This document shows, one piece after another, positions 28,438 to 62,465 of a stretch of DNA of 64,000 bases. The translations under genes and the position numbers were made by a program. Source of the stretch: Blastomonas fulva (GTDB lineage Bacteria; Pseudomonadota; Alphaproteobacteria; Sphingomonadales; Sphingomonadaceae); NCBI RefSeq assembly GCF_003431825.1, contig NZ_CP020083.1, positions 3,696,501 to 3,760,500 of the forward strand. The letters run 5' to 3'. Below the pieces are notes generated by a model that ran no database searches, had not been told where the DNA came from, and saw only the letters and a list, made by a program, of their open reading frames with translations. Numbering within the stretch: the first letter of the stretch is position 1; each line of letters starts with the position of its first letter.

Positions 28438-29168
28438 GGCGTATCGGGGGTCGCCAGACGGCGGACCTTGGCGGCGAGCGTATAGCCGCCACCCCACACG
28501 GTCTTGATCAGCCGCGGGGTGCGGTTGTCGGCCTCGACCTTCTTGCGCAGGCGGCTGATCTGGTTGTCGATCGCGCGATCGAACAGGTGCGCCTCGCGGC
28601 CATGCGCAAGATCGAGCAGCTGGTCGCGGTTGAGCACGTGCCCGGCGTGCTCGCAGAACACCTGCAACAGCTTGAACTCGGCGGTGGAGATGGGCACCAG
28701 CGCGCCATCGGGATCGGTCAGGCGGCGCTTGACGGTGTCGAGCCGCCAGCCGTCGAATTCGAACCCCTGGACCTCGTCCTCGGGTGTCTGCGGGACGCGC
28801 GCGGCGCGGCGCAGAACGGTCTTGATGCGTGCCACCAGCTCGCGCGGATCGAACGGCTTGACGACATAATCGTCGGCACCGATCTCCAGCCCGATGATGC
28901 GGTCCATCGCCTCGCCCTTGGCGGTGATCAGGATCACCGGGATTTCGGATTGCGCCGCGACATGGCGGCACAGGCTGAGGCCATCCTCGCCAGGCATCAT
29001 GATGTCGAGCAGCAAGATGGCAAAGCGCTGGTCGCGCATCAGCGTGCGCGCCTTGGCGGCATCGCCAGCCTCGGTCACGGCAAAGCCCTGCCCCACCAGA
29101 TATTCGGCGAGCGGTTCGCGCAAGCTGGGCTCGTCGTCGACGAGCAGGATGTGGGGCAAGTCATTCAT
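28434..29168 (-). CDS. OmpR family response regulator
   Basis: The 244-residue protein has an N-terminal receiver with the acidic pocket VDDE, phospho-acceptor Asp55 in LLLDIMMPGEDG, and the conserved lysine in DYVVKPFDPREL. The C-terminal winged-helix domain ends with the typical recognition region FDRAIDNQISRLRKKVE and TVWGGGYTLA. It is the first gene of the two-component operon; the kinase start overlaps its stop. The divergent arrangement is absent; the EF-hand gene upstream is on the same strand and ends about 100 bases before this start. Confidence 0.94.
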   Translation of the reverse strand: MNDLPHILLVDDEPSLREPLAEYLVGQGFAVTEAGDAAKARTLMRDQRFAILLLDIMMPGEDGLSLCRHVAAQSEIPVILITAKGEAMDRIIGLEIGADDYVVKPFDPRELVARIKTVLRRAARVPQTPEDEVQGFEFDGWRLDTVKRRLTDPDGALVPISTAEFKLLQVFCEHAGHVLNRDQLLDLAHGREAHLFDRAIDNQISRLRKKVEADNRTPRLIKTVWGGGYTLAAKVRRLATPDTP

Positions 29169-48209: not shown

Positions 48210-48701
48210 CTAGCGGGGGCGGCCGACCTCTCCGGTGGCGCTGATGATGATCCGGTCGCTATTGGCGCCGCGCGACAGCACCACCTCCACTGGGGCGTTG
48301 GGAAGCCCGGTGCTGTCGAACCAGAAGCGCGCGCGCGAAGGGGCGGCGGCAGCAGCAGCATCGGTCCCAGGCGGCGCGGCGACATCCGCCGCCTCGCCCT
48401 CGATCCGCGCCACCGTCCCGGGCTTCCAGTCACGGTTGGCGAGCGTGCGCGCGTTCAGGGGCACCCATTGCCGGTCCTGCCGCGCATCGAAACCATAGCC
48501 CGACGGCGCGATCCACACAGCGATGGGCCGAGCGCTGACCACCGCCTCATCGCGCGCCGCCGCGACACGCGCCGCAAAGCGATCGGCGTCTTCGGAGAGC
48601 GCCGCGCTGTCGCCGGGCAACGACAGCACAACCGCGCCCGCGACCAGGCCGATGATGAACAGCACCACCATCAGCTCGATAAGGGTGAAGCCGTTCCTCA
48701 A
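48210..48701 (-). CDS. gspH: Type II secretion minor pseudopilin GspH
   Basis: The protein has the prepilin motif NGFTLIELMVVLFIIGLVAG with cleavage between Gly and Phe, followed by the GspH-type beta-rich body (PIAVWIAPSGYGFD, RFWFDSTGLPNAPVEVVL). If it starts at the TTG at 48701, it has only a three-residue leader (MRN) before Gly. The frame stays open upstream through the inserted repeat, where an ATG at 48785 would give a 32-residue leader. The TTG sits exactly at the end of the repeat element, with GGGGA a few bases upstream. It is the last visible gene of the operon. Confidence 0.78.
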   Translation of the reverse strand: MRNGFTLIELMVVLFIIGLVAGAVVLSLPGDSAALSEDADRFAARVAAARDEAVVSARPIAVWIAPSGYGFDARQDRQWVPLNARTLANRDWKPGTVARIEGEAADVAAPPGTDAAAAAAPSRARFWFDSTGLPNAPVEVVLSRGANSDRIIISATGEVGRPR

Positions 48702-48867: not shown

Positions 48868-49350
48868 TTAAGCCCCATCGGCGGTGATATCCGCATTCTC
48901 ATTCTCGCCGCCCGGCGCGCCATCGGCACCCAGCGAATAGAGGTCGAACGCACCGGTCGTGCCCGGGCTGATATACTGATAGGGGCGGCCCCAGGGGTCC
49001 TGCGGCAGCTTCTTGATATAGCCGCCGCTGCGATAGCGCCCCGGCTGCGCCAGCGTTGGCGGCGCGGTGACCAGCGCGTTCAGCCCCTCGGCAGATCCCG
49101 GATAGGCCAGGTTGTCGAGCCGGTACATTTCGAGAGCCTGGCTCAGCGTCGCGATGTCGCTGCGCGCCTTTTCGGTCATCGCGCGGTCCTGGCTGGGAAG
49201 CACGTTGATGACCACGATCGTCGCGAGCAGCCCGATGATGAAGATCACCACCATCAGCTCGACCAGAGTAAACCCGTTGGCACGCTTGCGCGCCTGGGGC
49301 GAAAGGCGCTTGAGCAGCGCGGATCGGAATTTCAGCATGTTGGTCCTCAT
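48868..49350 (-). CDS. gspG: Type II secretion major pseudopilin GspG
   Basis: The 160-residue protein has a prepilin leader of 26 residues ending in ANG, then FTLVELMVVIFIIGLLATI with the conserved Glu at mature position 5. The body contains the GspG signature YPGSAEGLNAL and PQDPWGRPYQYISPG, the calcium-loop region of the major pseudopilin. The ATG overlaps the gspF stop (ATGA). It forms the pseudopilus shaft. Confidence 0.95.
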   Translation of the reverse strand: MRTNMLKFRSALLKRLSPQARKRANGFTLVELMVVIFIIGLLATIVVINVLPSQDRAMTEKARSDIATLSQALEMYRLDNLAYPGSAEGLNALVTAPPTLAQPGRYRSGGYIKKLPQDPWGRPYQYISPGTTGAFDLYSLGADGAPGGENENADITADGA

Positions 49351-50552
49351 AAGCCAGTCAGGTTCTGAAGCTGCAGGATCGGCAGCAGGATCGACAGGAT
49401 GATCAGCGCGACCACCCCGCCCATGACCACGATGATAGCTGGTTCTAGCAGGGCCATCGCGGTGGAGGTGAAATTCTGGAACTCGCGTTCGAGATAATCG
49501 GCGGCGCGCTCGAGCATGGTATCGAGCTGGCCTGCGCTCTCGCCGCTGGCGACAAGATACACCAGCAGCGGCGGAAAGGTCCCCGCATTCCTGAGCGCGC
49601 CCGAAAGCGAGCCGCCCGAACGGATCGATTCGACCGCCTCCTCGAGCGCTTCGCGCAGCACCGCGTTGCGGACGGTGCGGGTGGTCAGCTTCATGCCTTC
49701 GAGCAGAGGCAGGCGGCTGTGCACCATGGTCGCCAGCGTCCGCGCCAGCCTTGCCGCGTTCATGTCGCGGATCAGCCGCCCGATCAGCGGCAGCTTGACC
49801 AGCATGCCATCGAAGCGGTATTTGAACGAAGCCACCTTCATGGCGCGCCAGAAGGCGACGCCTGCGAGCACCATCGCAATGGCCAGCGCCCACCACCAGT
49901 TGCTGAGAAAATCGGAGATGCCGATGACGATCCGCGTGATCAGCGGCAGCTGAGTAGAGGCATTGTCGAACTGTTCGACCACGCGCGGCACCACCGAGAT
50001 CATCAGCCCGGCCACCACGCCGAACGCGACCAGGGTCAGGATGATCGGATAAGCGAGCGCCGAGATGATCTTGCCGCGCACCTCGGCCTGCTGTTCGAGC
50101 AAGGCTGCGAGCCGCTCGGTAATCACCGGCAGCGAGCCCGAGCTTTCGCCCGCGCTGATCATCGCGCGGAACAAAGGCGGGAAGCTGCGCGGCTCGCGCG
50201 CCATCGCTTCGGCGAGCGACTGCCCTTCCATCACGCCCGCATGCACGTTGATCAGCACCTCGCGTGCATTGGCCTTTTCGGTCTGGCGGCTGATCGTGCG
50301 CAGCGCCTCTTCCAGGGGGCTGACGCTCATCAGCGACGACATCTGCCGGGTGAACAGGGTGAGCTGCTTGGCGCTCAATCGTGCGGTGCGCTGCGAGATC
50401 AGCGCCTTGCGCGGCGGCGCGGGGGTAACGGTGACGATGTGGAACGCCTTGCGGATCAGCGCCGCGCGCGCCTGCGCATCCGAAGGCGCGCTGATCCGCC
50501 CCTGTCGCTCGCGCCCGGCGGAATCGATCACCTTATAGGCAAAGTCAGCCAT
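49347..50552 (-). CDS. gspF: Type II secretion inner-membrane protein GspF
   Basis: The 401-residue protein has two GspF/PilC repeats, each ending in membrane helices: IILTLVAFGVVAGLMISVVP and IIVVMGGVVALIILSILLPI. The cytoplasmic motifs LTLFTRQMSSLMSVSPLEEAL and FPPLFRAMISAGESSG (also FPPLLVYLVASGESAG) are typical. It overlaps gspE by one base and gspG by four. It couples the GspE ATPase to the pseudopilus. Confidence 0.95.
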   Translation of the reverse strand: MADFAYKVIDSAGRERQGRISAPSDAQARAALIRKAFHIVTVTPAPPRKALISQRTARLSAKQLTLFTRQMSSLMSVSPLEEALRTISRQTEKANAREVLINVHAGVMEGQSLAEAMAREPRSFPPLFRAMISAGESSGSLPVITERLAALLEQQAEVRGKIISALAYPIILTLVAFGVVAGLMISVVPRVVEQFDNASTQLPLITRIVIGISDFLSNWWWALAIAMVLAGVAFWRAMKVASFKYRFDGMLVKLPLIGRLIRDMNAARLARTLATMVHSRLPLLEGMKLTTRTVRNAVLREALEEAVESIRSGGSLSGALRNAGTFPPLLVYLVASGESAGQLDTMLERAADYLEREFQNFTSTAMALLEPAIIVVMGGVVALIILSILLPILQLQNLTGL

Positions 50553-52141
50553 CAGGCTCTCAGCGGTTCGGGCACCGGCTCGGCCTCGCGCCGCGAAATG
50601 CGGATCGCCTCTTCCGCCGTGGTCTGGCCGGTGCGCACCAGTTCGCGCGCCGCCGAGCCCAGATTGGGCGCGTTGAGGAAGGCGTGCCGCGCGATGATGG
50701 CCTCGTCGCCGCCATCGTTGATCAGGCGGCGAATGGTTTCATCCACCCGCACCGCCTCGAACACGCCGATGCGGCCCTGGAAGCCGGTATGGTTGCACGA
50801 ATCGCAGCCGACCGGGCGATAGACCACGGTACCCTTGTCGAAGCCGAGCAAAGAGGCGAGCGAGCCATCGGCCTGCACCGGCTCGCGGCATTCGGGGCAC
50901 AGCCGCCGCACCAGCCGCTGCGCGACGACCGCGCGCAAGGTCGAGGCGAGCAGGAACGGCTCGATCTTCATGTCGCGCATCCGGGTGATCGCGCCGATCG
51001 CATCGTTGGTGTGGACGGTCGAGAGCACCAGATGCCCGGTCAGCGAGGCCTGCACCGCGATCTCGGCGGTTTCGTGATCGCGGATTTCGCCGATCATCAC
51101 CACATCGGGGTCCTGGCGCAGGATCGCGCGCAGCCCGGCGGCGAAGGTCAGCCCGACCTTGGGGTTCACCTGAGTCTGGCCGACACCCTCGATGGCGTAC
51201 TCGACCGGGTCCTCGACGGTCAGCATGTTGCGCGAGCCGTCGTTGAGCTGCTTGAGGCACGAATAGAGCGTGGTGGTCTTGCCCGATCCGGTGGGACCCG
51301 TAACCAGCACGATGCCATTGGGCTCGGACAGCGCCTCGGCAAGGATCTTGTGGGTGCGCGGGCTCATGCCCAGCAGCCCCAGATCCATATTGGCGTTTTC
51401 CTTGTCGAGCAAACGCAGCACCACGCGCTCGCCAGCCCGGCTGGGCAGCGTCGATACGCGCACGTCGAGCAGTTTGCCGCCAATCGTCAGCCCGATGCGG
51501 CCATCCTGCGGCACGCGGCGTTCGGCGATGTCCAATCGCGCCATCACCTTGATGCGGCTGACGATCACCGGCGCGACATTGGGCGGCATCCGCAGCTTTT
51601 CCTGCAGCACGCCATCCATCCGCATCCGGATCACGAGCCCGGTCTCATAGGGCTCGATGTGGATATCCGACACGCCCTGCCGCGCCGCCTCGGCGATGAC
51701 GCCGTTGATCAGCCGGATCGCAGGCGCATCGTCGGCGCTGTCGAGCAAATCCTCGGCACTGGGAAGGTCGCTCGCCAGCATCTCCAGATCGCTGCCATCG
51801 ATGTTCATCGAGCTTGCCATCGCCGCGGCATTGCCTTCGACCGCATAATGATCCGACAGATAGCGCTCGAACTGCGCCACCGGGGCGAGCTCGACATCGA
51901 ACGGCATCGCCAGATAGCGCCGCACCTCGAGCAAGGTGATCGGGTCCGCGCCCTCGCGCAGCGCGACCTTGAGCCGCCCGTCGGCCTCGCCCAGCATCAC
52001 CACGCCGTTGTCGCGGGCAAAACCATAGGGAATGTCGAGCATCATCCGCGCGAGGCTGCGCTCGGCGGCAAGCTCGAGCGGCGCGTCGGCGGCGGCTTCA
52101 TCGATCGTGCCGTCACCGGCTTCGCCCTTGCGGATCTTCAT
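50552..52141 (-). CDS. gspE: Type II secretion ATPase GspE
   Basis: The 529-residue cytoplasmic ATPase has an N-terminal domain that contacts GspL, Walker A GPTGSGKTT at about residues 282-290, the Asp box and Walker B region DPDVVMIGEIRD, the His box TGHLVLSTVHTND, and a tetracysteine zinc module (CPEC...CDSC). It drives pseudopilus assembly by ATP hydrolysis. Its stop and the gspF start share one base (TGATG), and its start overlaps the gspD stop by four bases. Confidence 0.96.
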   Translation of the reverse strand: MKIRKGEAGDGTIDEAAADAPLELAAERSLARMMLDIPYGFARDNGVVMLGEADGRLKVALREGADPITLLEVRRYLAMPFDVELAPVAQFERYLSDHYAVEGNAAAMASSMNIDGSDLEMLASDLPSAEDLLDSADDAPAIRLINGVIAEAARQGVSDIHIEPYETGLVIRMRMDGVLQEKLRMPPNVAPVIVSRIKVMARLDIAERRVPQDGRIGLTIGGKLLDVRVSTLPSRAGERVVLRLLDKENANMDLGLLGMSPRTHKILAEALSEPNGIVLVTGPTGSGKTTTLYSCLKQLNDGSRNMLTVEDPVEYAIEGVGQTQVNPKVGLTFAAGLRAILRQDPDVVMIGEIRDHETAEIAVQASLTGHLVLSTVHTNDAIGAITRMRDMKIEPFLLASTLRAVVAQRLVRRLCPECREPVQADGSLASLLGFDKGTVVYRPVGCDSCNHTGFQGRIGVFEAVRVDETIRRLINDGGDEAIIARHAFLNAPNLGSAARELVRTGQTTAEEAIRISRREAEPVPEPLRA

Positions 52142-54330
52142 GGCCGGTCTCCCCCCACCGGCGGCAGCTCGGCCTGGCCGGGCTGGCTGGCAGGCAGCGT
52201 GGTTGTGTCGAGCGGTCCGCTACCGGGCATCGGACGCGGCGCGATCAGCTGGTCATTCGGCCCCGGCGGCGCGGCGACCGGAATGTTCGCGCCCAGATAG
52301 TCGCGCACGATGGTGTCGAGCGAGGGTTCGACCTTGGGGTTGAACTCGATCTGCGCCGCGCGGACATAATTGTAGCGCCGCGCCGCAATCGCCTGCGCGT
52401 CCTCGGCTGTGCGCAGGATCGTCGGGCGGATGAACACCATCAGGTTGGTCTTGGTCCGCTCGCGGCCGCGCGACTTGAACAGCTCGCCGATGATCGGGAT
52501 GTCGCCGAGCAGCGGGATCTTCTGGATCGTGCGGCGCTCGTTGTCGTCGAGCAGACCGCCCAAAGCGATGATCTCGCGGTCCTTGACCGTGACCGTGGTC
52601 TTGACCTCGCGCTTGTTGATGATCAGCTCGTTGAAATCGTTGCTCACCGGCCCGACGATCGAGCTGACCTCCTGCCGTATGTCAAGCTTGACCTGGTTGC
52701 CCGCGTTGATCTGCGGCTTCACCTCGAGCTCGATGCCGACATTCTGCCGCTGGATGGTGCGGAAGGCGTTGTCGAAATTGTTCGACAGCGCCTCGCCGGT
52801 GCTGATCGGGATCTCCTGGCCGAACAGGATCGAGCCCTGCACATTGTCGTTCACGGTCAGCGATGGCGTCGACAGGATGTTGGACTCGCTGTCCTCCTGC
52901 ACCGCATTGATGATCGCGCCCAAGACCCGGTTGTTGCCGATATCGGCAGCAAAGCCGGTATAGCCGCCGCGCGCGCCCAAGATGCGGTTGGCAGCGTTCT
53001 GGCGCAGGAAATCGCCCACCGCGCTGTTGTTGCTGGTGGTCACGGTATCACCGTTGATCACCGTGGTGGTCTCATCCAGATCGTTGGCGAGAATGCCGCC
53101 CGCGATATCGAGGATGTTGGGCGCGACGTTGGAGAACGGGGTGACGAGGAACGGAATGTCCTTGCCGCCGATCAGGAACTGCACGCCGAGCTCGCGAGCG
53201 ACCCGGTCGGAGATCTCGACGATGATCGCCTCGACCAGCACCTGTTCCTGGCGGATATCGAGCTGGCGCACGAGCTCGGCGAGCGAGCGCTGGACATCGA
53301 CCGGTGCGGAGATGATCACCGCATTGGCACCTTCATACCGGGTGATGATCGCGGTGCCGCGTCCGTTCGAAAGCCCCACCGCGCCGCCGATCGGGGCGGA
53401 CGCCGCAGCCGGGGCTGCGCCATTGGCAGAGGGAGCCGCCGCAGGCGTCGCGGACATCGGCTGCAAACCGCCGCCGCCCTGCGCGCCGACCATCATTTGC
53501 AGCACCGGCACCAATTGCTCGGCATCGGCATAATCGAGCCAGATCACGCGGATCTCGCTGCCGTTCGCAGCGCGCGCATCGAGCTCCCTGGCGATCGCGG
53601 TCAGCCGCGCAACGGTGGGCGCATCGCCGCGCAGCGCGACCGAATTGCTCGAATCCACCGCGACGACCGACACCAGCGGCGCGCCGCCCCCGCCGCCTTC
53701 CGCGCCGCCGCCGGGCGCGGGCGCCAGCTGCTGCAGCGTCATCGCGATCTCGCGCGCGCCGGCATGGTTGAGCGTGATCACCTGGGTGGTCGCATTGTCG
53801 CGGTCGATCTGGCCGATCAGCGCGCGGATGCGGCGGATGTTGTCGGCATAATCGGCGACGACCAGGCTGTTGCCGCTGCGGTTGGCGGTGATCGATCCTT
53901 CGCGGCTGACAAGCGGACGCAGCGTCTCGACCGCGGTGGTCGCGTCGATCGCGCGCAGGCGGAAGACCTCGGTGACGAACTCGTTCTGCCCGCCGCGACT
54001 GCCCACCCGGCCCGGCGCAGACGCTGCGCCATCGGTCGGCTGGATGCGATAGGCGCCGTTGGCGGTCGGCACCGCGATCAGCCCGTTGGCGCGCAGCGTG
54101 GAGAGGAACACCTCGAAATACTCGCTGCGGCTCAAGGGTCGGTCGGTCACAACTGAAACCTTGCCCTGCACACGGCCATCGATGATGAACGTGCGCCCGG
54201 TCACCGTGGCCGCATCCTCGATAAAGGCGCGTACATCGGCATCGCGGACATTGAGGCTGTGCTGCGCGGCCAGAGGTGACGCGAACACGAGCGCGGCGCA
54301 AAGCGCCAGGGTTGAAATGTGTTTTTTCAT
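52138..54330 (-). CDS. gspD: Type II secretion outer-membrane secretin GspD
   Basis: The 730-residue protein has a signal peptide (HISTLALCAALVFASPLAAQ), N-terminal N0-N3 domains (for example LNVRDADVRAFIEDAA and VTEVFRLRAIDATTAVETLRPL, core FRLRAIDATTAVETL), a Gly/Ala/Pro-rich loop, and the C-terminal secretin domain with VPLLGDIPIIGELF-type motif (here IPLLGDIPIIGELF) and FIRPTIL. It forms the outer-membrane channel. The ATG at 54330 was chosen because it gives the signal peptide and overlaps the gspC stop (ATGA). Confidence 0.95.
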   Translation of the reverse strand: MKKHISTLALCAALVFASPLAAQHSLNVRDADVRAFIEDAATVTGRTFIIDGRVQGKVSVVTDRPLSRSEYFEVFLSTLRANGLIAVPTANGAYRIQPTDGAASAPGRVGSRGGQNEFVTEVFRLRAIDATTAVETLRPLVSREGSITANRSGNSLVVADYADNIRRIRALIGQIDRDNATTQVITLNHAGAREIAMTLQQLAPAPGGGAEGGGGGAPLVSVVAVDSSNSVALRGDAPTVARLTAIARELDARAANGSEIRVIWLDYADAEQLVPVLQMMVGAQGGGGLQPMSATPAAAPSANGAAPAAASAPIGGAVGLSNGRGTAIITRYEGANAVIISAPVDVQRSLAELVRQLDIRQEQVLVEAIIVEISDRVARELGVQFLIGGKDIPFLVTPFSNVAPNILDIAGGILANDLDETTTVINGDTVTTSNNSAVGDFLRQNAANRILGARGGYTGFAADIGNNRVLGAIINAVQEDSESNILSTPSLTVNDNVQGSILFGQEIPISTGEALSNNFDNAFRTIQRQNVGIELEVKPQINAGNQVKLDIRQEVSSIVGPVSNDFNELIINKREVKTTVTVKDREIIALGGLLDDNERRTIQKIPLLGDIPIIGELFKSRGRERTKTNLMVFIRPTILRTAEDAQAIAARRYNYVRAAQIEFNPKVEPSLDTIVRDYLGANIPVAAPPGPNDQLIAPRPMPGSGPLDTTTLPASQPGQAELPPVGGDRP

Positions 54331-55223
54331 GGTTCCGGTATGATCAGCGCAATGGGAAGGGTCTCGGTGCCGCGCTCGATGAGCAGCGACAGCCGGGCTC
54401 CGGGACGAAGCTGCCCTGCCAACGCCGCGCCATCCTGCGCGGAGCTGACCTTGCGGCCGTTGATTTCGGTGACGATATCGCCGGGCTTGAAGCCGGCCTG
54501 CGCGAACACCGCGCCATCGGCCTTGGGGGTGACGGCAAAACCGCTGACCCGCCCGTTCTCGGTGCGCGGGGCAAAGCCGATGCCCGCGGTGATCGCCTCT
54601 GCAGTGAGCGGCCCGGCCTGCGCCACAGGCAGCGCCTGCGCCGTTGTGGCTGGCGCCGCCGCAGTGTCGCCCACGGTATCGGCGGGAACCGACTGGTCGA
54701 TGAACAGGCTCTCGCGCAATCCGCCGCGTTCGAGCACGACATGATCGAACAGCACCTGCACCAGCTTGACGCCCGGTGCCACCTCCTCGCCCACGCCATA
54801 GCTGCGCTGGACGCCGTCCGACCCGGCGATGATCGCCGAACCGCCGCCCGAAGCCTCGTTCATCCGCAAACCGTAGAGCGTCAGATCGAGCGAGGTGACT
54901 GCCGCGCTGGCATCGCCCGCGGCCGCCGCGCGGTCGAACCCGTCGAAGCTCGCGAACAGCGCTGCGCGCGAAGGCGCGGACATCACCTTGGCGGTGCGCG
55001 CCTGCCAGTCGCCCAAAGGCGCGATCGGTGTGATGATGGTCCACATCAGCCGCGCGATCTGGATGACCAGCGCAAGGATCAGCAGCGCCCGCAGCCAGCC
55101 ATACAACCCCTTGGGCAGAAACCGCGCCAGACCACTGGCCGGGGCTGCAAATCTTGCCGACCGGAATCGGGAAAGAGAAGCACCAAGGCCTGTCTGCGCG
55201 CCGTGATGGGCCGCTGATGCCAC
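54327..55223 (-). CDS. gspC: Type II secretion protein GspC
   Basis: The 298-residue protein has an N-terminal cytoplasmic stub, one membrane helix (ALLILALVIQIARLMWTII), the homology region with FDGFDRAAAAGDASAAVTSLDLTLYGLRMNE (core DLTLYGLRMNEASGG), a Pro/Ala linker and a C-terminal PDZ domain (AVTPKADGAVFAQAGFKPGD, core FKPGDIVTEINGRKV). It connects the inner-membrane platform to GspD. It is the first gene of the operon; a PhoB-like repeat tract lies 60 bases upstream. Confidence 0.9.
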   Translation of the reverse strand: MASAAHHGAQTGLGASLSRFRSARFAAPASGLARFLPKGLYGWLRALLILALVIQIARLMWTIITPIAPLGDWQARTAKVMSAPSRAALFASFDGFDRAAAAGDASAAVTSLDLTLYGLRMNEASGGGSAIIAGSDGVQRSYGVGEEVAPGVKLVQVLFDHVVLERGGLRESLFIDQSVPADTVGDTAAAPATTAQALPVAQAGPLTAEAITAGIGFAPRTENGRVSGFAVTPKADGAVFAQAGFKPGDIVTEINGRKVSSAQDGAALAGQLRPGARLSLLIERGTETLPIALIIPEP

Positions 55224-55282
55224 GAATCACTCCCCGTTGCGGGCCGATCCCCTTGGCCCTGACACGCTGCTAGGCGCGGCGC

Positions 55283-55311
55283 ATGACGGTTGGATTACCA
55301 GTTTATGACAG
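55283..55311 (-). promoter_or_regulatory. Candidate PhoB box upstream of gspC
   Basis: Read on the minus strand, three 7-mers lie at an exact 11-bp period: CTGTCAT (55311-55305, all 7 positions match the consensus), TGGTAAT (4 of 7) and CCGTCAT (6 of 7, 55289-55283). The box ends 60 bases before the gspC ATG. The classical Pho box is two CTGTCAT-like units spaced by four bases. No other promoter for gspC was recognised. Confidence 0.6.
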
Positions 55312-55360
55312 ATATTTGAATGCAAATGCGCGCGTGATCGGCCTGAAACGCCAACGGCAA

Positions 55361-55384
55361 GGGGCAGCCCCTGCGGACTGCCCC
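55361..55384 (-). terminator. Hairpin after the TonB-dependent receptor gene
   Basis: GGGGCAG (55361-55367) pairs with CTGCCCC (55378-55384) around a 10-base loop, about 35 bases past the receptor stop on the minus strand. No good T-tract follows, so termination would be weak or Rho-assisted. It separates the receptor transcript from the gspC promoter region. Confidence 0.4.
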
Positions 55385-55418
55385 CCATCACGCATATCGT
55401 TTAGCCGCCTTGGACCGA

Positions 55419-58148
55419 TCAGAACTGCAGCGATGCGCTGATCGAGAAGGCCCGGCCGATGTCATAGGCGTTGTTGAGAATGGTCGAAGTGTTGAGCTGC
55501 TGGAACTCGACATAATCGGTTCCCAGCAGGTTGCGGGCCTCGAACTTGAGCTCGGCGACCTTGTTGAAGACCTTGAAGCCCTCGCGCCACACGAAGTCGA
55601 GCCGGGGACCGGTGTATTCGACGAAATCGGGCTGGCCCGCAGGACCGCGGTTGGTCACGCGGTTGCTGTTCCACGACAGCAGGATGGTCTGCTGCGACAG
55701 ACGTTCGCCGGTGCCTTCAAGCCCGACCTGCATGTTGGCGATATGATCGGACTGGCCGGTCAGCGCAAAGCCGCCGGTGCGGAAGATCGTCGAGGCGGCG
55801 ACCATGTTGCCGCTCAGCGGATCGGCGATCTGGTCCTGCGCGGTCACCTTCACATCCGAATTGGTGTAGGTGTAGTTGCCCGCGATCAGCAGACGGCGTT
55901 CCTCGAAGAAGGTGCCGCCCAGATCGATCAGATCGAAATATTTCACCAGCTCGATTTCCGCACCGTACAGCGTGGCGGTCGGCGCGTTGGCGAAGGTGGT
56001 GAAGAAGTTGTCGCCCTGACGGAAACCGAGGTTTTCGATCGGATCCTTGATGTCCTTGTAGAAGATCGCGGCGGTCACGCGCTCGTCACGCCCGAAGAAA
56101 TATTCGTAGCGCGCTTCGAGGTTGATCAGGCGGCTGTTCTTGAGGAACGGGTTGCCGAAGAAGGTGCGGTCGAATTCCAGATCGAGATACTGCTGCGGCG
56201 CGAGTTCGCGGAACTGCGGCCGGGCGATGGTCTTGGAGGCGGCAAAGCGCACCTGCATGTCCTCGGCCAGGTTCCAGGTCAGCGTCGCGGCAGGCAGAAA
56301 GTCATCCTTCTTGATGCTGGTCGCCACCAGATTGGCGCTGCCCAGGCCGAACAGATCGATCGGCAGCACGAACTGGGAGCCATCTTCATAGCGCACGCCA
56401 GCCTGAAGCTTGAGGGTGTCGGTGAACTTGGCTTCGAACTGCAGATAGCCTGCATGCACTTCCAGCCCGGCATCATAGGCTGCCGCGCCGTTGGTGCCCG
56501 AGGTTTCGACCAGACGGACATCGAAGGTGTAGACGTTGAAGTCCGACAGCAGGAAGTCGGGGCGCTGCTGCGAAACCGCAAACGGCAGCGGTCCCTGCCC
56601 GCTCAGGAAGCGGAAGTCGCGGCGGATCGAGGTGCGGTCGTTCTTGTAATAGGCATAGCCGGCCGAGAAGGTGATCGGAAAGCCGATGTCGGTGTCATAA
56701 GCGAGGTCGACATTGGCGCCGTAGACATTGTCGTCGAGATCGCTGAACGCGATGCGCGCGCCCTCGCCCGCCGACTGGAGATCGTTGACGAAGTCACCAG
56801 CGACCGCGTTGAAGGTATAGTCGAACGTCCGCTCATACGGGGCTTCGCGCTGCGAATTGGCGTAGCTGCCGCGGAAGTTGAGGCGGAAATCGTCGAACTT
56901 CATCTCGCCGACGAACTGGGTGTTCATCAGCTGGCGCTCGAACCAGTTGGTACGGCTGCGGTTGATCAACCGGGTGTCGGTGACGCGCGCGTCGATGCCT
57001 TCACGGATCGAGGCGTCCTTGAGCGTATCGCGGATGAAGACGTTGGTGAGCTTGAACTTGTGCTCGCCGACGTCCGCGGTGATGCCCAGCAGGCCGTTGA
57101 CGACGATGCGGTTCTCGGTGGTCAGGTAGCGGAAATCGATGTCGGGGTTGAGCGTATCGACGCCGTTCACCGGCACGATACCCTGCGAGATCTGCTGGAC
57201 GCCGCCGCGCGTACGCCAGGTGTTGTTGATGCCGGTCGCGCCGACGATGCCGATGTTGACATCGCCGATCAGAAAGCTGGTCGCGCCGCTGATCTGGCCC
57301 GAGAAATTGACCGGGATGTTGTTGTTGCGCTGGATCAGCGCAGTGTTGGCGTTGGCCAGGCTTGCGGTCAGGTCGCGCACTTCACCGGCGGTGAAATTGG
57401 CCCCCACGGAAATCGGATTGCCCGAGGCAAAGGCGTTGCGCAGGTTGCGCGGCAGGGTGCGCGCGCCATTGTCGAAGCCGGTGAAGTCGGTCGAGGAGCC
57501 GAAATAGGTATAGCCCACCTCGCCGGTGGTGATGGTGTCGCCGCCGGTGCCGACCTCGATCTTGAAGAACGGGTCGCGCGGAACCGACTTGGTGGTGAGG
57601 TTGATTGCGCCACCGCCGAATTCGCCCGGATAGTCCACCGAATAGCTCTTCTGGATGGTGGTCGAGGCGATGACGCTGGTCGGGAAGATGTCGAGCGGCA
57701 CGGTGCGGCGCAGCGGATCGGGCGAGGTCAGCGGCGATCCGTTCATCAGCGCGAGCGAATAGCGTTCACCCAGACCGCGAACGAACACGAAGCGGCCGCC
57801 GACGACGCTGAGGCCGGTCACGCGCTGCAGCGATCCGGCAATGTCGCCATCGGCGGTGCGCGCGATGTCGGCTTCGCTGAGGACCGAGAGCACCTCGGAG
57901 GTCGCTCGGATCGGGTTGGGGATGAAGCGACCGCGCACCACGATTTCACTGCTGCCGCCGCCTGCGCCGGGACCGGAGATTTCGATCTCTTCCTGGGCGG
58001 GCTCCTCGGCAGCCGGTTCCTCGGCAGCCGGCTGGGCGGCATCCTGGGTCGGCTGCGCGGGGGCTTCCTGGGCGAAGGCGGCCGGCGAAACCAAGCCTGA
58101 GCTGGCCATCAGCAATGCAGCGAATGAAAGCGGCGTCAATTTCGCCAT
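55419..58148 (-). CDS. TonB-dependent outer-membrane receptor
   Basis: The 909-residue protein has a signal peptide (residues 1-27), an acidic Ala/Pro-rich segment, a plug domain beginning about EIVVRGRFIPNP and containing the conserved LQRVTGLSVVGGRFVFVRGLGERY region (core VRGLGERYSLALMNG) and FPTSVIASTTIQKSYSVDYPGEFGGG (core DYPGEFGGGAINL), then a beta-barrel ending in SISASLQF with the C-terminal Phe. It transports a ligand across the outer membrane with TonB energy. TTGGAGGG precedes the start. It is downstream of a lipoprotein gene on the same strand, separated by a hairpin with a T-tract; the ligand is unknown. Confidence 0.93.
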   Translation of the reverse strand: MAKLTPLSFAALLMASSGLVSPAAFAQEAPAQPTQDAAQPAAEEPAAEEPAQEEIEISGPGAGGGSSEIVVRGRFIPNPIRATSEVLSVLSEADIARTADGDIAGSLQRVTGLSVVGGRFVFVRGLGERYSLALMNGSPLTSPDPLRRTVPLDIFPTSVIASTTIQKSYSVDYPGEFGGGAINLTTKSVPRDPFFKIEVGTGGDTITTGEVGYTYFGSSTDFTGFDNGARTLPRNLRNAFASGNPISVGANFTAGEVRDLTASLANANTALIQRNNNIPVNFSGQISGATSFLIGDVNIGIVGATGINNTWRTRGGVQQISQGIVPVNGVDTLNPDIDFRYLTTENRIVVNGLLGITADVGEHKFKLTNVFIRDTLKDASIREGIDARVTDTRLINRSRTNWFERQLMNTQFVGEMKFDDFRLNFRGSYANSQREAPYERTFDYTFNAVAGDFVNDLQSAGEGARIAFSDLDDNVYGANVDLAYDTDIGFPITFSAGYAYYKNDRTSIRRDFRFLSGQGPLPFAVSQQRPDFLLSDFNVYTFDVRLVETSGTNGAAAYDAGLEVHAGYLQFEAKFTDTLKLQAGVRYEDGSQFVLPIDLFGLGSANLVATSIKKDDFLPAATLTWNLAEDMQVRFAASKTIARPQFRELAPQQYLDLEFDRTFFGNPFLKNSRLINLEARYEYFFGRDERVTAAIFYKDIKDPIENLGFRQGDNFFTTFANAPTATLYGAEIELVKYFDLIDLGGTFFEERRLLIAGNYTYTNSDVKVTAQDQIADPLSGNMVAASTIFRTGGFALTGQSDHIANMQVGLEGTGERLSQQTILLSWNSNRVTNRGPAGQPDFVEYTGPRLDFVWREGFKVFNKVAELKFEARNLLGTDYVEFQQLNTSTILNNAYDIGRAFSISASLQF

Positions 58149-58169
58149 GAGTCCCTCCAAGAATTCATC

Positions 58170-58203
58170 AAAAAGGGGCGGCGGCGCTTTTCGCCGCCGC
58201 CCC
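58170..58203 (-). terminator. Rho-independent terminator between lipoprotein and receptor genes
   Basis: On the minus strand GGGGCGGCGGCG (58203-58192) and CGCCGCCGCCCC (58186-58175) form a perfect 12-bp stem with a 5-base AAAAG loop, followed by TTTTTG (58174-58169). The U-tract ends about 22 bases before the receptor ATG. It is a strong terminator that would reduce receptor expression from the upstream promoter, or act as an attenuator. Confidence 0.8.
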
Positions 58204-58225
58204 GAAACCGGTCAGCGGTTTACAA

Positions 58226-59770
58226 TCAGGTGGTCGGAATGGTCGGCACGGCGGTGCAAGCAGGCGTGCTGCTGTACAGGCCGCAGGTCCATCCCTGGAA
58301 CCGCGTGTCGGCAGCATCGCGCACCGCACCGATATAGGTGACCGAGTTGTAGAAGCTGTTGATCGCGGTCACGTTGAACACCGGACGCGCGGTTTCGTTG
58401 GCACCATTGATGAAGATGCCCGACAGCGTCGAGGTGCCGTTGGTGGTGTTGTTCGATCCAGCGGTGAACAGCGCCTGGATGGCGGCAACGGTCACGTTGC
58501 CATCATCGGTGAAGGCGTTGGGGCAGCTGAGGAACACCGATTCAAAGCGCGGCGGGCCGGCTTCATCGCCTGCAGCACCCGAAGCCTGCATGGTGATCGC
58601 GCTGTCAACGTCGAGGCACCAGCCGGGACCGCTGATCACGCTGTTGAACGCGGCAAAGTCCATGCCGCCGCGCAGCAGGATCGCCGCTTCGTCTGCGGTG
58701 GTCTGGGTGGAGACGAACGTGGCGTTCGACATCGACCACTTGGTGCGCGGCTCGGCGTTTTCGTTGCCGTTCGAATCGCCTTCGATCACGTGGTTGGCGC
58801 TGGCGGTCTGGATGCCGAGCAGGAACTGGTTGAAGCCCTGATAGCCCAGATCCATGTCGAAGGTGTCGTCGTCATTGCCCAGGCCGACGAGGTTGCGTCC
58901 GTTGACGCGTCCGCCGAACCATTCGATGCCATCGTCCGAGCTGTTGTAGACCTGCACGTTCTGGAAGAAGGTGCCCGAGCCCACGCCTGCCAGGGTGATG
59001 CCGTTGAGCTCGTTGCCCGGCTGGACCTCGAAGCCCGAATAGCGAACCTGGAAGAACGCGATGCGGCCCGAATTGTCGGTGGGCACCGCGCCGCCATAAT
59101 TGGCGTTGGTGCCTTCCACGACGCCCGAGCAATCGGTGCGGGTGCCGCCAGGGTTTGTCGGCGAACCGGTGGCGCAGTCGGAAAGCGGCGCACGGCCGAG
59201 GATCACGACACCGCCCCACAGGCCCTTGGAGTTGGCGGTGGCGGTGCCCACGACGTTGTCGCGTGCGGTGAAGATGATCGGCTGAGTCGCGGTGCCTTCG
59301 GCAAACAGCTGCGAGCCGCGGTTGACCAGCAGGAAGTCCGCGCCCGACGATCCGAAGAAGGTCACGCCCGGCTCGATGGTCAGGATGGCCGAGGTCCCGG
59401 CGCCACCTGCGGCACCGACATCGACGCCGACCTGTACGCGGCCCGAGAGCGAGTAGACAGTGCCGGCGCGGCGCGGGATCACCAGGTTGGTCGTGATCGT
59501 GCCCGAAAGCTGGCAGTTGCGGGCAACTGCGCCGCCACCCAGCGTGATGGTGCCGACATTTGCGGTGCCGTTGGGGCAGTCTGCAGCCGGACCGGTCGGG
59601 GTCGGCGTGGGGGTCGGAGTCGGCGTCGGGGCGGGCGCGGGTGCCGGTGTGGGAGCCGGAACAACGATGACGCCTTCGCCGGGCGATGCGACGTCATCTG
59701 CGCCGCAAGCGGTAACTACCAGGGCCGCGGCCGAAGCCATCAGGACCGAACGAACACGTGCATTGAGCAT
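58226..59770 (-). CDS. Predicted lipoprotein with right-handed beta-helix-like domain
   Basis: The 514-residue protein has a lipoprotein signal peptide ending VVTAC (Cys22), a Pro/Thr/Ala-rich low-complexity linker at about residues 37-60, and a long repeat-rich body with motifs such as ILTIEPGVTFFGSSGADFLLVNRGSQ (core GVTFFGSSGADFLLV), FQVRYSGFE, LNGITLAGVGSGTFFQNVQV (core TFFQNVQVYNSSDDGIEW) and a C-terminal region, consistent with a parallel beta-helix. Seven body cysteines may form disulfides. No enzymatic motif is seen. It is followed by a TonB-dependent receptor gene, so binding or presenting a substrate to it is likely. A PhoB-like tract lies upstream. Confidence 0.82.
   Translation of the reverse strand: MLNARVRSVLMASAAALVVTACGADDVASPGEGVIVVPAPTPAPAPAPTPTPTPTPTPTGPAADCPNGTANVGTITLGGGAVARNCQLSGTITTNLVIPRRAGTVYSLSGRVQVGVDVGAAGGAGTSAILTIEPGVTFFGSSGADFLLVNRGSQLFAEGTATQPIIFTARDNVVGTATANSKGLWGGVVILGRAPLSDCATGSPTNPGGTRTDCSGVVEGTNANYGGAVPTDNSGRIAFFQVRYSGFEVQPGNELNGITLAGVGSGTFFQNVQVYNSSDDGIEWFGGRVNGRNLVGLGNDDDTFDMDLGYQGFNQFLLGIQTASANHVIEGDSNGNENAEPRTKWSMSNATFVSTQTTADEAAILLRGGMDFAAFNSVISGPGWCLDVDSAITMQASGAAGDEAGPPRFESVFLSCPNAFTDDGNVTVAAIQALFTAGSNNTTNGTSTLSGIFINGANETARPVFNVTAINSFYNSVTYIGAVRDAADTRFQGWTCGLYSSTPACTAVPTIPTT
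59596..59662 (-). repeat. Low-complexity Pro/Thr/Ala-coding repeat in the lipoprotein gene
   Basis: On the plus strand the tract consists of repeated GTCGG/GTGGG-type hexamers such as GGCGTGGGGGTCGG. On the coding strand it encodes the alternating Pro-Thr and Pro-Ala linker between the lipidated N-terminus and the beta-helix body. Such tracts change length easily by slippage in multiples of six bases. Confidence 0.65.
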
Positions 59771-59907
59771 CTTTGAATCTCCGCAAATCAGGACAGATCA
59801 GTCTGTCGGCTTTTCTGGAACGAGGCGGAGATGAGCTGATTCCACCCCCTGGAACGCCGTTCGAGGGGGCAGATAGGCAGGCAAGATGAACCTGCGGCGC
59901 TATTTCA

Positions 59908-59936
59908 GTGACAATGGAGCGACAGGATTATGACGG
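59908..59936 (-). promoter_or_regulatory. Candidate PhoB box upstream of the beta-helix lipoprotein
   Basis: On the minus strand three 7-mers follow at an exact 11-bp period: CCGTCAT (59936-59930, 6 of 7 positions), CTGTCGC (59925-59919, 5 of 7) and TTGTCAC (59914-59908, 5 of 7). A further CTGTCAC at 59956-59950 is two bases out of phase. The box ends 138 bases before the lipoprotein start, which leaves room for a promoter and a long leader. Confidence 0.55.
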
Positions 59937-60136
59937 TTTGGAGTCTTATGTGACAGAACCGGGTCACGGGACAGATGCACCGACCTATCTACCTAATAAA
60001 TAAGGACTAATCCGAACGCCTGGGCGAGGCCTGCAGTTCAGCCAAGGCCTTGGCGAGCGCCGAATGAGTCGCCGCGCGCATGCGCATTGCGCGAATAAGG
60101 TGACTTAATTGCCACAACTGTCCCACAGCCGGACGC

Positions 60137-60169
60137 AAAAACGCCCGGTCGGAACAGGTCCGGCCGGGC
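60137..60169 (-). terminator. Rho-independent terminator of the TPR gene
   Basis: On the minus strand an 11-bp stem (GCCCGGCCGGA with TCCGACCGGGC, one mismatch) around a 5-base loop at 60169-60143 is followed by GTTTTTG. It begins about 29 bases after the TPR stop codon. Confidence 0.8.
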
Positions 60170-60197
60170 GCTGGTGATTTTCGATCGATCGGCGCGA

Positions 60198-60608
60198 TCA
60201 GCGGCTGGCATAGCCCTGATCGAGGCGGCGCATGGCGTGGCGCGCGGCAACGCGGCTGTCCATCACGCGCCCGTCCGACAGGATGATGTCGAACGATGCC
60301 GGGGCGTTGATCGCCGCCTGGTAATGCTGACGCGCCGAAGCAACATCGCCCATCTTGGCATAGGCCAGCCCCATGTTGATCAACCTTGCGGGATCGCGGC
60401 GGGCAGCCGGTGAAACCTGTTTCTCTGCGGCCTGCATCTGTTCCAGAGCGGCCGGGTAATTGCCCTGCAGCAGCGCGGCATAGCCCAGCGCGCCGGCATC
60501 ATAACCGATTTCATTCGCCGCCGCCCGGTTCTGCACAGGCTGGGCAAAGCCAGGCGCAGCCATACCGAGGGCGGCCAGGGCCGCGATTGCGATAACTTTG
60601 GTGTTCAT
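60198..60608 (-). CDS. Small secreted TPR-repeat protein
   Basis: The 136-residue protein has a signal peptide (residues 1-22, ending GFAQ) and about two tetratricopeptide repeats, with LGYAALLQGNYPAALEQMQAAE and MGLAYAKMGDVASARQHYQAA as typical helices. It likely acts in the periplasm as a binding module. It is divergent from phoD across a 210-base region rich in TGTCA motifs, so it may share phosphate-dependent control, but no well-phased box was found in its direction. It ends at a clear terminator. Confidence 0.78.
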   Translation of the reverse strand: MNTKVIAIAALAALGMAAPGFAQPVQNRAAANEIGYDAGALGYAALLQGNYPAALEQMQAAEKQVSPAARRDPARLINMGLAYAKMGDVASARQHYQAAINAPASFDIILSDGRVMDSRVAARHAMRRLDQGYASR

Positions 60609-60675
60609 GTCATCTGATCCTTTCTCAACGTGACAGGTCGAATGCTATGCCTATGTGACAGTCAATGCAACATCA

Positions 60676-60715
60676 TTGTCATATAAAAGACGTCCCGATG
60701 TCATATTTCTGTAAT
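60676..60715 (+). promoter_or_regulatory. Candidate PhoB box upstream of phoD
   Basis: Four 7-mers lie at an exact 11-bp period: TTGTCAT (60676-60682, 6 of 7 positions), AAGACGT (3 of 7), ATGTCAT (60698-60704, 6 of 7) and CTGTAAT (60709-60715, 6 of 7). The last two alone form a standard Pho box with a four-base spacer. It lies 103 bases before the phoD ATG. The stretch is AT-rich compared with its surroundings. Confidence 0.65.
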
Positions 60716-60818
60716 CTTCAAAATTTCACCCTATTGTCACACGCACGACACGGGACTTGACCATCAGACACGCGCGCTGTCCGATGCGCTGCCAAAACAC
60801 TCCGGAGAGGCCGTCCCC

Positions 60819-62465
60819 ATGACCATGACAATCGACCGCAGGCTGCTGATCAAGGCGGGCACCTTCGGGCTTGCCGCATTGTCCATTCCCGGTGCGGCGC
60901 AGGCGCTGTTTGCAGGGCGCGGCTTCACCCATGGCGTGGCGAGCGGCGAGCCTTCGGGCAATTCGGTGCTGCTGTGGACGCGCTATGTCGCGGACAGCGA
61001 TGCACGGCTGACCGCCGAGCTCTCCCCTACCCCCGATTTCGCCAGGCCTGTGGGCGGCGGGTCGGTAACTGCCAGCGCCGCGCGCGACCATATCGCCAAG
61101 CTCACCGTCACCGGGCTCAAGCCCGACAGCTGGTATTTCTATCGCTTCGTGGCGGCAGATGGCAGCACGTCACCGGTCGGCCGCACCCGCACGCTGCCGG
61201 TGGGCGAGGCCGCAGGCTTCAACATCGGCGTGTTTTCCTGCTCCAACCTGCCCTTTGGCTGGTTCAACGGCTATGCCCATGCCGCCGCGCGCAACGACCT
61301 GGATCTGGCGGTGCACACCGGCGACTATGTCTATGAATACGGCCTCGACGTGTACCCCACGCGCGGTCAGGCGCTCCCCGGGCGCAGCGTCCAGCCCGAT
61401 CACGAGATGGTGACGCTGGCCGATTACCGGCTGCGCTATGCCAGCTACCGGCTCGATGCCGATCTGCAGCGGCTGCACCAGGTGGTGCCGATGATCGCGA
61501 TGTGGGACGACCACGAGATCGCCAATGACAGCTATCGCGATGGCGCGCAGAACCATCAGAGCGACAGCGAAGGCGATTATGCGACCCGCCGCCGCATCGC
61601 CGAACAGGTCTATCGCGAGTGGATGCCGGTCGCAGATCTGGCGCCCGCCGACCCCTTGTGGACCAGCTACCAGATCGGCAACCTTGCCACGCTGATCCGC
61701 ACCGAAAGCCGCCTGTCGGGCCGAGACAAACCCGCCGAGCTCGCCGATGCGTTTGCCGGTGGCGGCGACATCGCTGCAGCACTGGCCAGGTTCCGCGACG
61801 AAAAATGGGTCGACCCTGCCCGCCGCATGCTGGGTGACGATCAGGCGCGCTGGCTGGGCGACCAGTTCAAGGCGTCCAAGGCGTCAGGTACCCGCTGGCA
61901 GGTGTGGGCGCAGCAATGCGTGATGGGATCGATGAAGCTGCCGCTCGAAACCGGCGACTGGGTGCCCAGGGACGCACCCGCGATCGTGCGCAGCCGATCG
62001 GCTGCGGGGCTTGCAGCGAGCAAGGCCGGCCTGCCGTTCAACATGGACGCATGGGATGGCTACCCCGTCCAGCGCGAGGCGCTGCTCCAGTCCGCGCAGG
62101 CCGCGGACGCCGATCTGGTCGTGCTGTCGGGCGACAGCCACAATGGCTGGGGCTTCGATCTGGATGCGGGCGGCAAGCCCGCCGGGGTCGAGTTTGCCGG
62201 TCATTCGATCAGCTCGCCGGGGTTCGAGGCCTATGCGCCGACGATTGCCCCCGCCGATGTCGCAGGCGCACTGGTGCGCGGCAATCCGCAGCTCAAATGG
62301 GCCGATACCAGCTCGCGCGGCTACATGACGCTGCAGCTGACCCAGCAAAGCGCCACCGCGCACTGGCACAAGCTGCGCACCATTCGCGAACGCAGCACCG
62401 ATCTGGCCGGAAGCAGCAGCCTTAGCGTCCTTCCCGGACGGCGGACGATCGCGATGCCCGGCTGA
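60819..62465 (+). CDS. phoD: PhoD-type alkaline phosphatase
   Basis: The 548-residue protein begins with a twin-arginine-like signal (DRRLLIKAG followed by a hydrophobic stretch), so export by the Tat pathway is likely. The PhoD N-terminal domain shows FTHGVASGEPSGNSVLLWTR, and the metallophosphatase domain shows VHTGDYVYEYG, MWDDHEIANDSY and LSGDSHNGWGF, the ligands for the iron and calcium centre of PhoD. It releases phosphate from phosphodiesters and monoesters. GGAGAGG precedes the ATG. A PhoB-like box upstream fits control by phosphate starvation. Neighbouring type II secretion genes could carry it across the outer membrane. Confidence 0.92.
   Translation: MTMTIDRRLLIKAGTFGLAALSIPGAAQALFAGRGFTHGVASGEPSGNSVLLWTRYVADSDARLTAELSPTPDFARPVGGGSVTASAARDHIAKLTVTGLKPDSWYFYRFVAADGSTSPVGRTRTLPVGEAAGFNIGVFSCSNLPFGWFNGYAHAAARNDLDLAVHTGDYVYEYGLDVYPTRGQALPGRSVQPDHEMVTLADYRLRYASYRLDADLQRLHQVVPMIAMWDDHEIANDSYRDGAQNHQSDSEGDYATRRRIAEQVYREWMPVADLAPADPLWTSYQIGNLATLIRTESRLSGRDKPAELADAFAGGGDIAAALARFRDEKWVDPARRMLGDDQARWLGDQFKASKASGTRWQVWAQQCVMGSMKLPLETGDWVPRDAPAIVRSRSAAGLAASKAGLPFNMDAWDGYPVQREALLQSAQAADADLVVLSGDSHNGWGFDLDAGGKPAGVEFAGHSISSPGFEAYAPTIAPADVAGALVRGNPQLKWADTSSRGYMTLQLTQQSATAHWHKLRTIRERSTDLAGSSSLSVLPGRRTIAMPG

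Follow-up and report, generated by a model that had tools for sequence, protein, structure and literature searches.

A probable PhoB-controlled ElpS-receptor-type II secretion locus in Blastomonas fulva

We asked whether a chromosomal locus of Blastomonas fulva, in which genes for a type II secretion system (T2SS), a lipoprotein, a TonB-dependent receptor and a PhoD phosphatase lie side by side, is controlled by PhoB, and whether these genes form one unit. The window, i.e., the whole 64-kb stretch analysed (C1:3696501-3760500 of the 4.12-Mb genome), carries on its minus strand, in this order, a tetratricopeptide repeat (TPR) gene (60608-60198), the lipoprotein gene, which we term elpS (59770-58226), the receptor gene (58160-55419) and gspC-D-E-F-G-H (55223-48210), with phoD on the plus strand (60819-62465) and divergent from the TPR gene. 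A preliminary description of the window had reported tracts of 7-bp units upstream of gspC, elpS and phoD, and had proposed that PhoB turns on secretion, lipoprotein with receptor, and phosphatase as a single nutrient-acquisition unit. From sequence comparisons, we consider it very likely that the locus is the Blastomonas version of a phosphate-starvation locus of the Caulobacter type, comprising ElpS, receptor and T2SS under PhoB control; to call it one nutrient-acquisition unit is too strong.

Sites were scored with a 29-bp matrix of three units, trained solely on pstS upstream regions. We used the pstS of this genome and 30 further pstS genes with loci returned, from 61 of 69 genomes with a match; 29 of the 31 regions yielded a site, and none of the pstS training matches reaches the TIGR02136 cut-off. 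Starting weights were those of the Escherichia coli consensus. A simple pattern search of the same genome (two units, at most three mismatches) was dropped as too loose (217 matches vs 58 in the reversed control). The sequence bears out the three tracts at the positions first reported, with units of 7 bp starting every 11 bp on the strand of the gene that follows, as listed below with two weaker sites.

55283..55311, minus strand: Pho box of the gspC-H cluster, three units, CTGTCAT-AAAC-TGGTAAT-CCAA-CCGTCAT, 22.9 bits, the top site in the window
59908..59936, minus strand: Pho box of elpS, presumably serving the receptor too, CCGTCAT-AATC-CTGTCGC-TCCA-TTGTCAC, 13.2 bits
60089..60117, minus strand: weaker second site upstream of elpS, 10.3 bits
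60676..60715, plus strand: phoD array 1, four units, TTGTCAT-ATAA-AAGACGT-CCCG-ATGTCAT-ATTT-CTGTAAT, 10.4 bits
60723..60762, plus strand: phoD array 2, 9.6 and 9.0 bits

All 10 placements of at least 5.5 bits on either strand of the window fall in the three intergenic regions of the locus, and the best site in each region is the tract reported for gspC, elpS or phoD. In a background of 380 kb (19 of 20 stretches of the same genome, the 20th, which contains pstS, being excluded), seven sites reach at least 8 bits, three at least 10.4 bits and none 13.2 bits. Twenty first-order Markov copies of the window gave means of 1.5, 0.55 and 0.25 sites at these three thresholds, and none at 22.9 bits; among 400 copies of promoter composition (831 bp), 0.9% of strands had a site of at least 10.4 bits and 0.4% one of at least 13.2 bits. 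Measured against such random sequence, the gspC box is far beyond chance and the elpS box is strong given its position. The phoD box is the weakest of the three taken alone, and gains from array 2 and from conservation in the Blastomonas group. With the same matrix, no Pho box belonging to the receptor itself was found in the window or in relatives.

We examined how far the boxes are conserved in the family, where 138 of 199 genomes, the present one included, have an elpS match. The sample comprised 69 elpS loci: 60 hand-chosen neighbourhoods (58 of them one per other genus, L073-L130) and nine more, which include one Luteimonas and one genome from an already sampled genus. Sense sites of at least 9 bits were present upstream of elpS in 53/69 loci, of gspC in 19/24 and of the receptor in 0/67, and antisense sites in 13/69, 0/24 and 0/67, respectively; 1.06% of 2923 random windows from the same loci reach 9 bits. 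In the 58 other-genus loci, 44/58 elpS promoters and 10/15 promoters of gspC genes found by tblastn have a site of at least 9 bits, compared with 23/239 control promoters, i.e., those of other genes at the same loci (Fisher's test: P about 2e-23 for elpS and 7e-7 for gspC). Eighteen control promoters reach at least 12 bits, and most of these belong to phosphate or T2SS genes themselves: by family scan or sequence cluster, 17 are PstS-type, PhoB, PhoB-like or T2SS-family genes, and one is a glutathione transferase. The ten scanned with Pfam comprise two PstS-type genes, one PhoB (by NCBIfam), two PhoB-like regulators, two GspC (one under the cut-off), one GspL, one T2SSE-family ATPase and the glutathione transferase; the remaining 8/18 belong to the cluster of PhoB-like regulators.

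The spacing of units gives a further control. Sense pairs at 11 bp occur in 45/69 elpS, 19/24 gspC and 0/67 receptor upstream regions, and pairs at 22 bp are the next commonest (elpS: 36/69; gspC: 13/24); antisense pairs at 11 bp number 10, 0 and 1 for elpS, gspC and receptor. That PhoB controls elpS and the gspC cluster is well supported by these comparisons, because the matrix was trained independently, the spacing control at 11 and 22 bp agrees, the sites prefer one strand, and they are conserved across genera. In other-genus elpS promoters, good units also recur at 8, 9, 19 and 20 bp, which resembles two arrays out of phase; this is not so in pstS and gspC promoters.

A PhoB gene is present at C1:1973567 (331.9 bits); its neighbours are a gene for PhoU and an ABC (ATP-binding cassette) ATPase gene that reads as pstB. 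The genome's own pstS has a 28.4-bit box, its protein being under the TIGR02136 cut-off. One may ask whether another OmpR-family regulator, e.g., the product of 28434-29168 in the window, binds the tracts instead of PhoB. The PhoB model has 34 matches in the genome, two others being full-length at 198.6 bits (this OmpR-family response regulator, under the cut-off) and 189 bits, and related regulators could share half-sites. However, the matrix derives from pstS promoters alone and finds phoB, PstS-type and T2SS promoters in relatives, and a single protein of this genome exceeds the PhoB cut-off. We regard binding by such a regulator as very improbable.

The genes of the locus were identified as follows.

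48210..48701, minus strand: gspH, final T2SS gene of the cluster, start uncertain (Pfam GspH, 43.1 bits)
48868..49350, minus strand: gspG, major pseudopilin (Pfam T2SSG, 133.3 bits)
49347..50552, minus strand: gspF (Pfam T2SSF, 193 bits)
50552..52141, minus strand: gspE, ATPase (Pfam T2SSE, 470.5 bits, and GSPE_N1E)
52138..54330, minus strand: gspD, secretin (Pfam Secretin, 161.6 bits, and N0 domain)
54327..55223, minus strand: gspC (Pfam T2SSC, 84.8 bits, and PDZ)
55419..58160, minus strand: TonB-dependent receptor, presumed partner of ElpS (Pfam Plug and TonB barrel)
58226..59770, minus strand: elpS-like lipoprotein gene, 514 aa; lipobox VTAC at residues 19-22 (C22), a Pro/Thr linker, then a conserved domain
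60198..60608, minus strand: small TPR protein with a signal-like start (Pfam TPR_1 and TPR_2)
60819..62465, plus strand: phoD, phosphatase, with a twin-arginine-like signal, DRRLLIKAG, seen by eye (Pfam PhoD, 322.1 bits; PhoD_N, 89.6 bits)

Two products remain under NCBIfam cut-offs: GspC scores 71.4 bits to TIGR01713 (cut-off 101.6), and PhoD 227.8 vs 1000 bits for the equivalog AlkPhosPhoDBac. ElpS shows the traits of the Caulobacter lipoprotein CC0170, namely a lipoprotein signal, a size of about 50 kDa and a place immediately 5′ of a TonB receptor and gspC. It is 92-95% identical to proteins in five Blastomonas and Sphingomonas records, and precomputed annotation assigns domain PF28492 to all 120 ElpS homologues listed. 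Our Pfam scan returned no match to ElpS, and hence no SusD domain, and no credible hit came from searching PDB sequences with ElpS (best E = 0.011). Downstream of phoD, a gene for an M13 family peptidase (62658-63998) extends to the window end, with no Pho site of at least 5.5 bits there.

Is the phoD tract a working box, or are only the gspC and elpS boxes functional, with the phoD tract due to chance or decay? Its 10.4 bits are the lowest score of the three, at a level that the 380-kb background reaches three times and a 64-kb Markov copy 0.55 times. Among 28 phoD genes outside the genus (the matches in the family with loci fetched), 27 score under 9 bits, the sole site having 9.8 bits, and within the own group scores range from 6.4 to 13.3 bits, with at least 9 bits in 4/7. 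Nevertheless, two arrays lie within one 210-bp region, and their cores are invariant in all eight Blastomonas-group sequences (18 bp, ATGTCATATTTCTGTAAT, in array 1 and 9 bp, TTGTCACAC, in array 2), compared with 44% of all columns of the upstream alignment. We therefore consider a chance or decayed tract unlikely, and the phoD box looks genus-specific. Conservation of the boxes in relatives, which the preliminary description had named as a check, is accordingly found for elpS and gspC in other genera and is wanting for phoD (1/28).

Where phoD lies elsewhere may bear on how it came to its present place. Two distant PhoD-like genes near elpS in other genera (29-31% identity) score 12.5 and 8.2 bits. 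In 3/15 other-genus regions downstream of the T2SS genes (L186 and L201, of one genus, and L192, of another), phoD follows gspN on the same strand, lacks a separate box and is presumably transcribed along with the gsp genes; the own-genus downstream regions L190 and L191 have no phoD behind the T2SS genes. In the simplest history, phoD would once have followed the T2SS genes; in this genus, it would have come to stand beside elpS with boxes of its own.

The genes around elpS differ in how closely they keep to it. The receptor adjoins elpS in 67/69 loci (60/62 outside the own genus), and the two loci that lack it (L076, L126) are in genomes with a second elpS copy. Outside the genus, gspC was found in 17/62 elpS loci and a phoD match in 2/62, these being the two distant genes just mentioned. 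The TPR gene has a tblastn match in 30/62 of these loci, in 29 of which it is beside or divergent from elpS, no more than 1 kb upstream; a sense site of 11.3-19.1 bits precedes it in 6/7 own-group relatives, and in the window none of at least 0 bits. A VirB4/TrbE-family gene (one tested: Pfam CagE_TrbE_VirB) lies divergent from elpS, 2.0-2.5 kb upstream, in 22/62. A 2-oxoglutarate Fe(II) oxygenase gene (C1:1946956-1947603, beside gspI-J-K) was rejected as a partner of ElpS, being found in only 10/62 loci with no sense box there. In two genera, a pstS-type gene stands about 2 kb from elpS (L109 of G059; G067:C14:44288-45178), and a further PstS-type gene occurs in L126; these genes are independent support for the phosphate link.

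The T2SS is split in this genome. The locus has only gspC-H, with gspI-J-K at C1:1947.7-1949.7 kb and gspL-M-N at about C1:669.1-671.5 kb. Components C, D, E, F, G, H, I, J, K, M and N exceed Pfam cut-offs. Pfam T2SSL has no match, and loss of gspL was ruled out with a profile of relatives, the only means by which gspL was recognised (5.6e-88; GspL_C 23.4 bits, under the cut-off of 29.6), so that the set from C to N is present. In other-genus downstream regions, gspI, J and K are in the main cluster in 11/15 (L188, L193-L200, L202, L203) and absent from it in 4/15 (L186, L189, L192, L201); region L187, which holds no T2SS genes, was left out.

Several observations weigh against PhoB control of a Caulobacter-type locus. 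Sites of at least 9 bits are lacking from 14/58 elpS and 5/15 gspC promoters of other genera, and the near absence of phoD boxes outside the genus points the same way, as do the antisense 9-bit sites in 13/69 elpS upstream regions, although the latter probably serve divergent neighbours. The matrix scan found no Pho box at gspI-J-K or gspL-M-N, so that PhoB by itself would leave part of the machine uninduced. The Caulobacter T2SS is reported to be expressed in rich as well as poor medium, gspE and gspL rising 1.7-fold, and the receptor gene CC0171 to be constitutive (PMC2996285). Finally, the kinship of ElpS with CC0170 would rest on gene order, length, lipobox and a statement on Sphingomonas alaskensis in that paper. 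If PhoB drives the T2SS here, we infer that it does so for gspC to gspH only, the remaining genes being supplied otherwise, which would fit the expression of the Caulobacter T2SS in rich medium with a modest rise in poor medium.

Alternatively, the neighbourhood may be a loose one, in which the phosphate unit would consist of elpS and the receptor, and the T2SS would be a machine for secretion in general, placed there by history. That gspC is near elpS in just 17/62 loci outside the genus, that T2SS genes are at three places in this genome, and that the Caulobacter T2SS is expressed in rich medium as well all favour this possibility. Yet gspC keeps its own box across genera, even where it is divergent from elpS (L107, 16.7 bits), and boxes also precede GspC-family genes that tblastn did not pick up (L116, 22.9 bits; L124, 15.4 bits, the latter gene under the Pfam cut-off). 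We find a merely historical T2SS rather unlikely, though somewhat less so than a chance phoD tract, and retain PhoB control of elpS and the gspC cluster. What goes too far in the earlier proposal is the single unit, because gspC (17/62) and phoD (2/62) are so seldom near elpS and phoD boxes are mostly absent elsewhere.

Given this arrangement, the locus may work as follows. When phosphate is scarce, PhoB would bind the tandem 11-bp repeats and induce three transcripts, i.e., elpS with the receptor, gspC-H, and phoD; the receptor, which follows elpS after a 65-bp gap and has no box of its own, would probably be read through from elpS. ElpS would be lipid-anchored at the cell surface, where it and its own TonB-dependent receptor would act as a pair that captures and takes up a ligand containing phosphorus. 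PhoD would leave the cytoplasm via the Tat (twin-arginine translocation) route, for which the DRRLLIKAG motif speaks, and would free phosphate; it might also pass through the T2SS as a substrate.

We compared elpS and the receptor with their flanks within genera. Over phoD, TPR and gsp genes, the locus of a second genome of the genus (G157, L072) matches the window at 0.8-0.94 identity for the most part; over elpS and the receptor, identity is about 0.6. One breakpoint lies near 59600, where the Pro/Thr linker that follows the lipobox ends, and the other near 55310, immediately ahead of the gspC box, so that L072 keeps promoter, signal peptide, linker and T2SS. Both G157 genes are nearer to other genera (L208, L096, L122; 63-70%) than to congeners (51-54%). 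Similarly, elpS and receptor are both nearest to L089 and L221 in L214, and to L125 and L206 in L103; in both, the flanking genes show greater similarity within the genus (medians 69-72 and 83). L216 is a weaker case, its receptor being nearest to L100 and its ElpS 45.8% identical to L100 vs 45.2% to the congener, and in genus g76 the two genes have partly different nearest relatives. In g8 and g30, elpS and receptor diverge more than the flanks with the congener still nearest, which may reflect fast joint evolution.

The two genes also deviate together. There were 33 within-genus pairs of loci; 22 with at least five other shared genes were used and 11 dropped. Over these 22 pairs, which are not independent of each other, how far elpS falls short of the flanks correlates with how far the receptor does (r = 0.96); the shortfall exceeds 15 points for both genes in 7/22 and for one gene only in 2/22. 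Among the 21 loci with all four genes, distances correlate at 0.75 between elpS and receptor, 0.42 between elpS and gspD, 0.35 between elpS and gspE, 0.62 between receptor and gspD, 0.60 between receptor and gspE, and 0.77 between gspD and gspE. By these sequence data, elpS and the receptor seem to pass between species jointly, as a unit of inheritance separate from the T2SS; this pattern speaks for the two being partners, physically or functionally.

In 22/69 loci, gene calls place behind the receptor, on the opposite strand and 4.0-6.3 kb behind the elpS start, an atypical PhoB-like regulator (for example, L073:7978-8652, convergent). The count excludes L078, whose regulator is normal, L104, which has a true PhoB, and L099. 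Three that were tested score 138-146 bits to TIGR02154 (cut-off 296.2). Leu occupies the Ser/Thr switch position in 22/22, the receiver Lys is present in 0/22, the phosphorylation Asp is kept in 21/22, and both residues of the acidic pair are found in 3/22; 12/22 have a Pho box of their own of at least 12 bits. It is possible that this is a PhoB paralogue independent of phosphorylation and tied to the elpS-receptor pair; no such paralogue is beside elpS in the window. We tentatively suggest, rating it somewhat below an even chance, that the ElpS domain and receptor are an exchangeable specificity cassette, replaced in place from other genera while PhoB promoter, lipid anchor and T2SS are kept, and that in many relatives the atypical paralogue adjusts the locus without ordinary phosphorylation. 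If so, cells could change the target of capture, or the docking of phages or bacteriocins, without altering regulation or export.

ElpS-type proteins are widespread in the family. The repeated joint replacement of ElpS domain and receptor argues that the two proteins act together, and it provides natural matched and mismatched pairs. For many genera, the box data predict that part of the T2SS is switched on by phosphate hunger, and they suggest that a phosphatase gene was drawn into the same regulon where it came to lie beside elpS. The order of lipoprotein, receptor and T2SS genes, the induction of ElpS by phosphate starvation and PhoB control of the T2SS are already in print; new are the T2SS in three chromosomal places with a box seen only at gspC, the conserved TPR neighbour of elpS, the joint exchange of ElpS domain and receptor, and the PhoB paralogue in 22 loci. 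We found no published report of the joint exchange, of genus-specific phoD boxes or of the paralogue, in searches that were not aimed at exchange or paralogue and that left most subscription journals outside their coverage; nor did we find a paper uniting Pho box, sphingomonads, TonB-dependent receptor and type II secretion. Apart from the works cited, no paper listed appeared, by its title and the opening of its abstract, to describe this locus, and PMC9123166 and PMC5590869 had no bearing on it.

How does the locus compare with known systems? The Hxc T2SS of Pseudomonas aeruginosa is phosphate-regulated and serves a phosphatase; to our knowledge, it has no ElpS-receptor pair. SusCD-type pairs consist of a TonB-dependent channel and a cognate surface lipoprotein that are inherited together. 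A PusCD pair is mentioned in PMC8115612. The present pair would likewise join such a channel to a lipoprotein inherited with it, but ElpS has no SusD domain that we could find, and the pairing here is proposed from sequence. In Flavobacterium johnsoniae, loci PUSIII and PUSIV have low-phosphate lipoproteins, FI and FII, beside TonB-dependent transporters; for these lipoproteins, the authors give 31-36% identity to that of Caulobacter across 50-54% of the length (PMC8115612). These resemble our locus in the lipoprotein beside a TonB-dependent transporter and in the link to low phosphate, but they belong to another phylum, and FII is beside phoBR (PMC8115612).

The closest parallel is that of Caulobacter, where ElpS is induced by phosphate starvation, the order is elpS (CC0170)-CC0171-gspC-N (PMC2996285), and the T2SS belongs to the PhoB regulon (PMC11208175). 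Similar gene orders were named in 2010 for Sphingomonas alaskensis, Xanthomonas campestris and Hyphomonas neptunium (PMC2996285). The combination of T2SS, receptor and putative beta-helix lipoprotein in the preliminary description is close to the published CC0170-CC0171-gsp arrangement. Its statement on Caulobacter was right as to phosphate, T2SS and lipoprotein; the T2SS is, however, needed for the release of ElpS, which seems to require a secreted protease, and not for its surface display (PMC2996285). The two loci share the lipoprotein with its lipobox, the TonB receptor, the genes from gspC onward and, by prediction in the present locus, the link to phosphate starvation and a T2SS in the PhoB regulon. 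Unlike in Caulobacter, phoD and the TPR gene here adjoin elpS, phoD has boxes of its own, only gspC-H are at the locus with I-J-K and L-M-N elsewhere, and a joint exchange of lipoprotein domain and receptor is seen.

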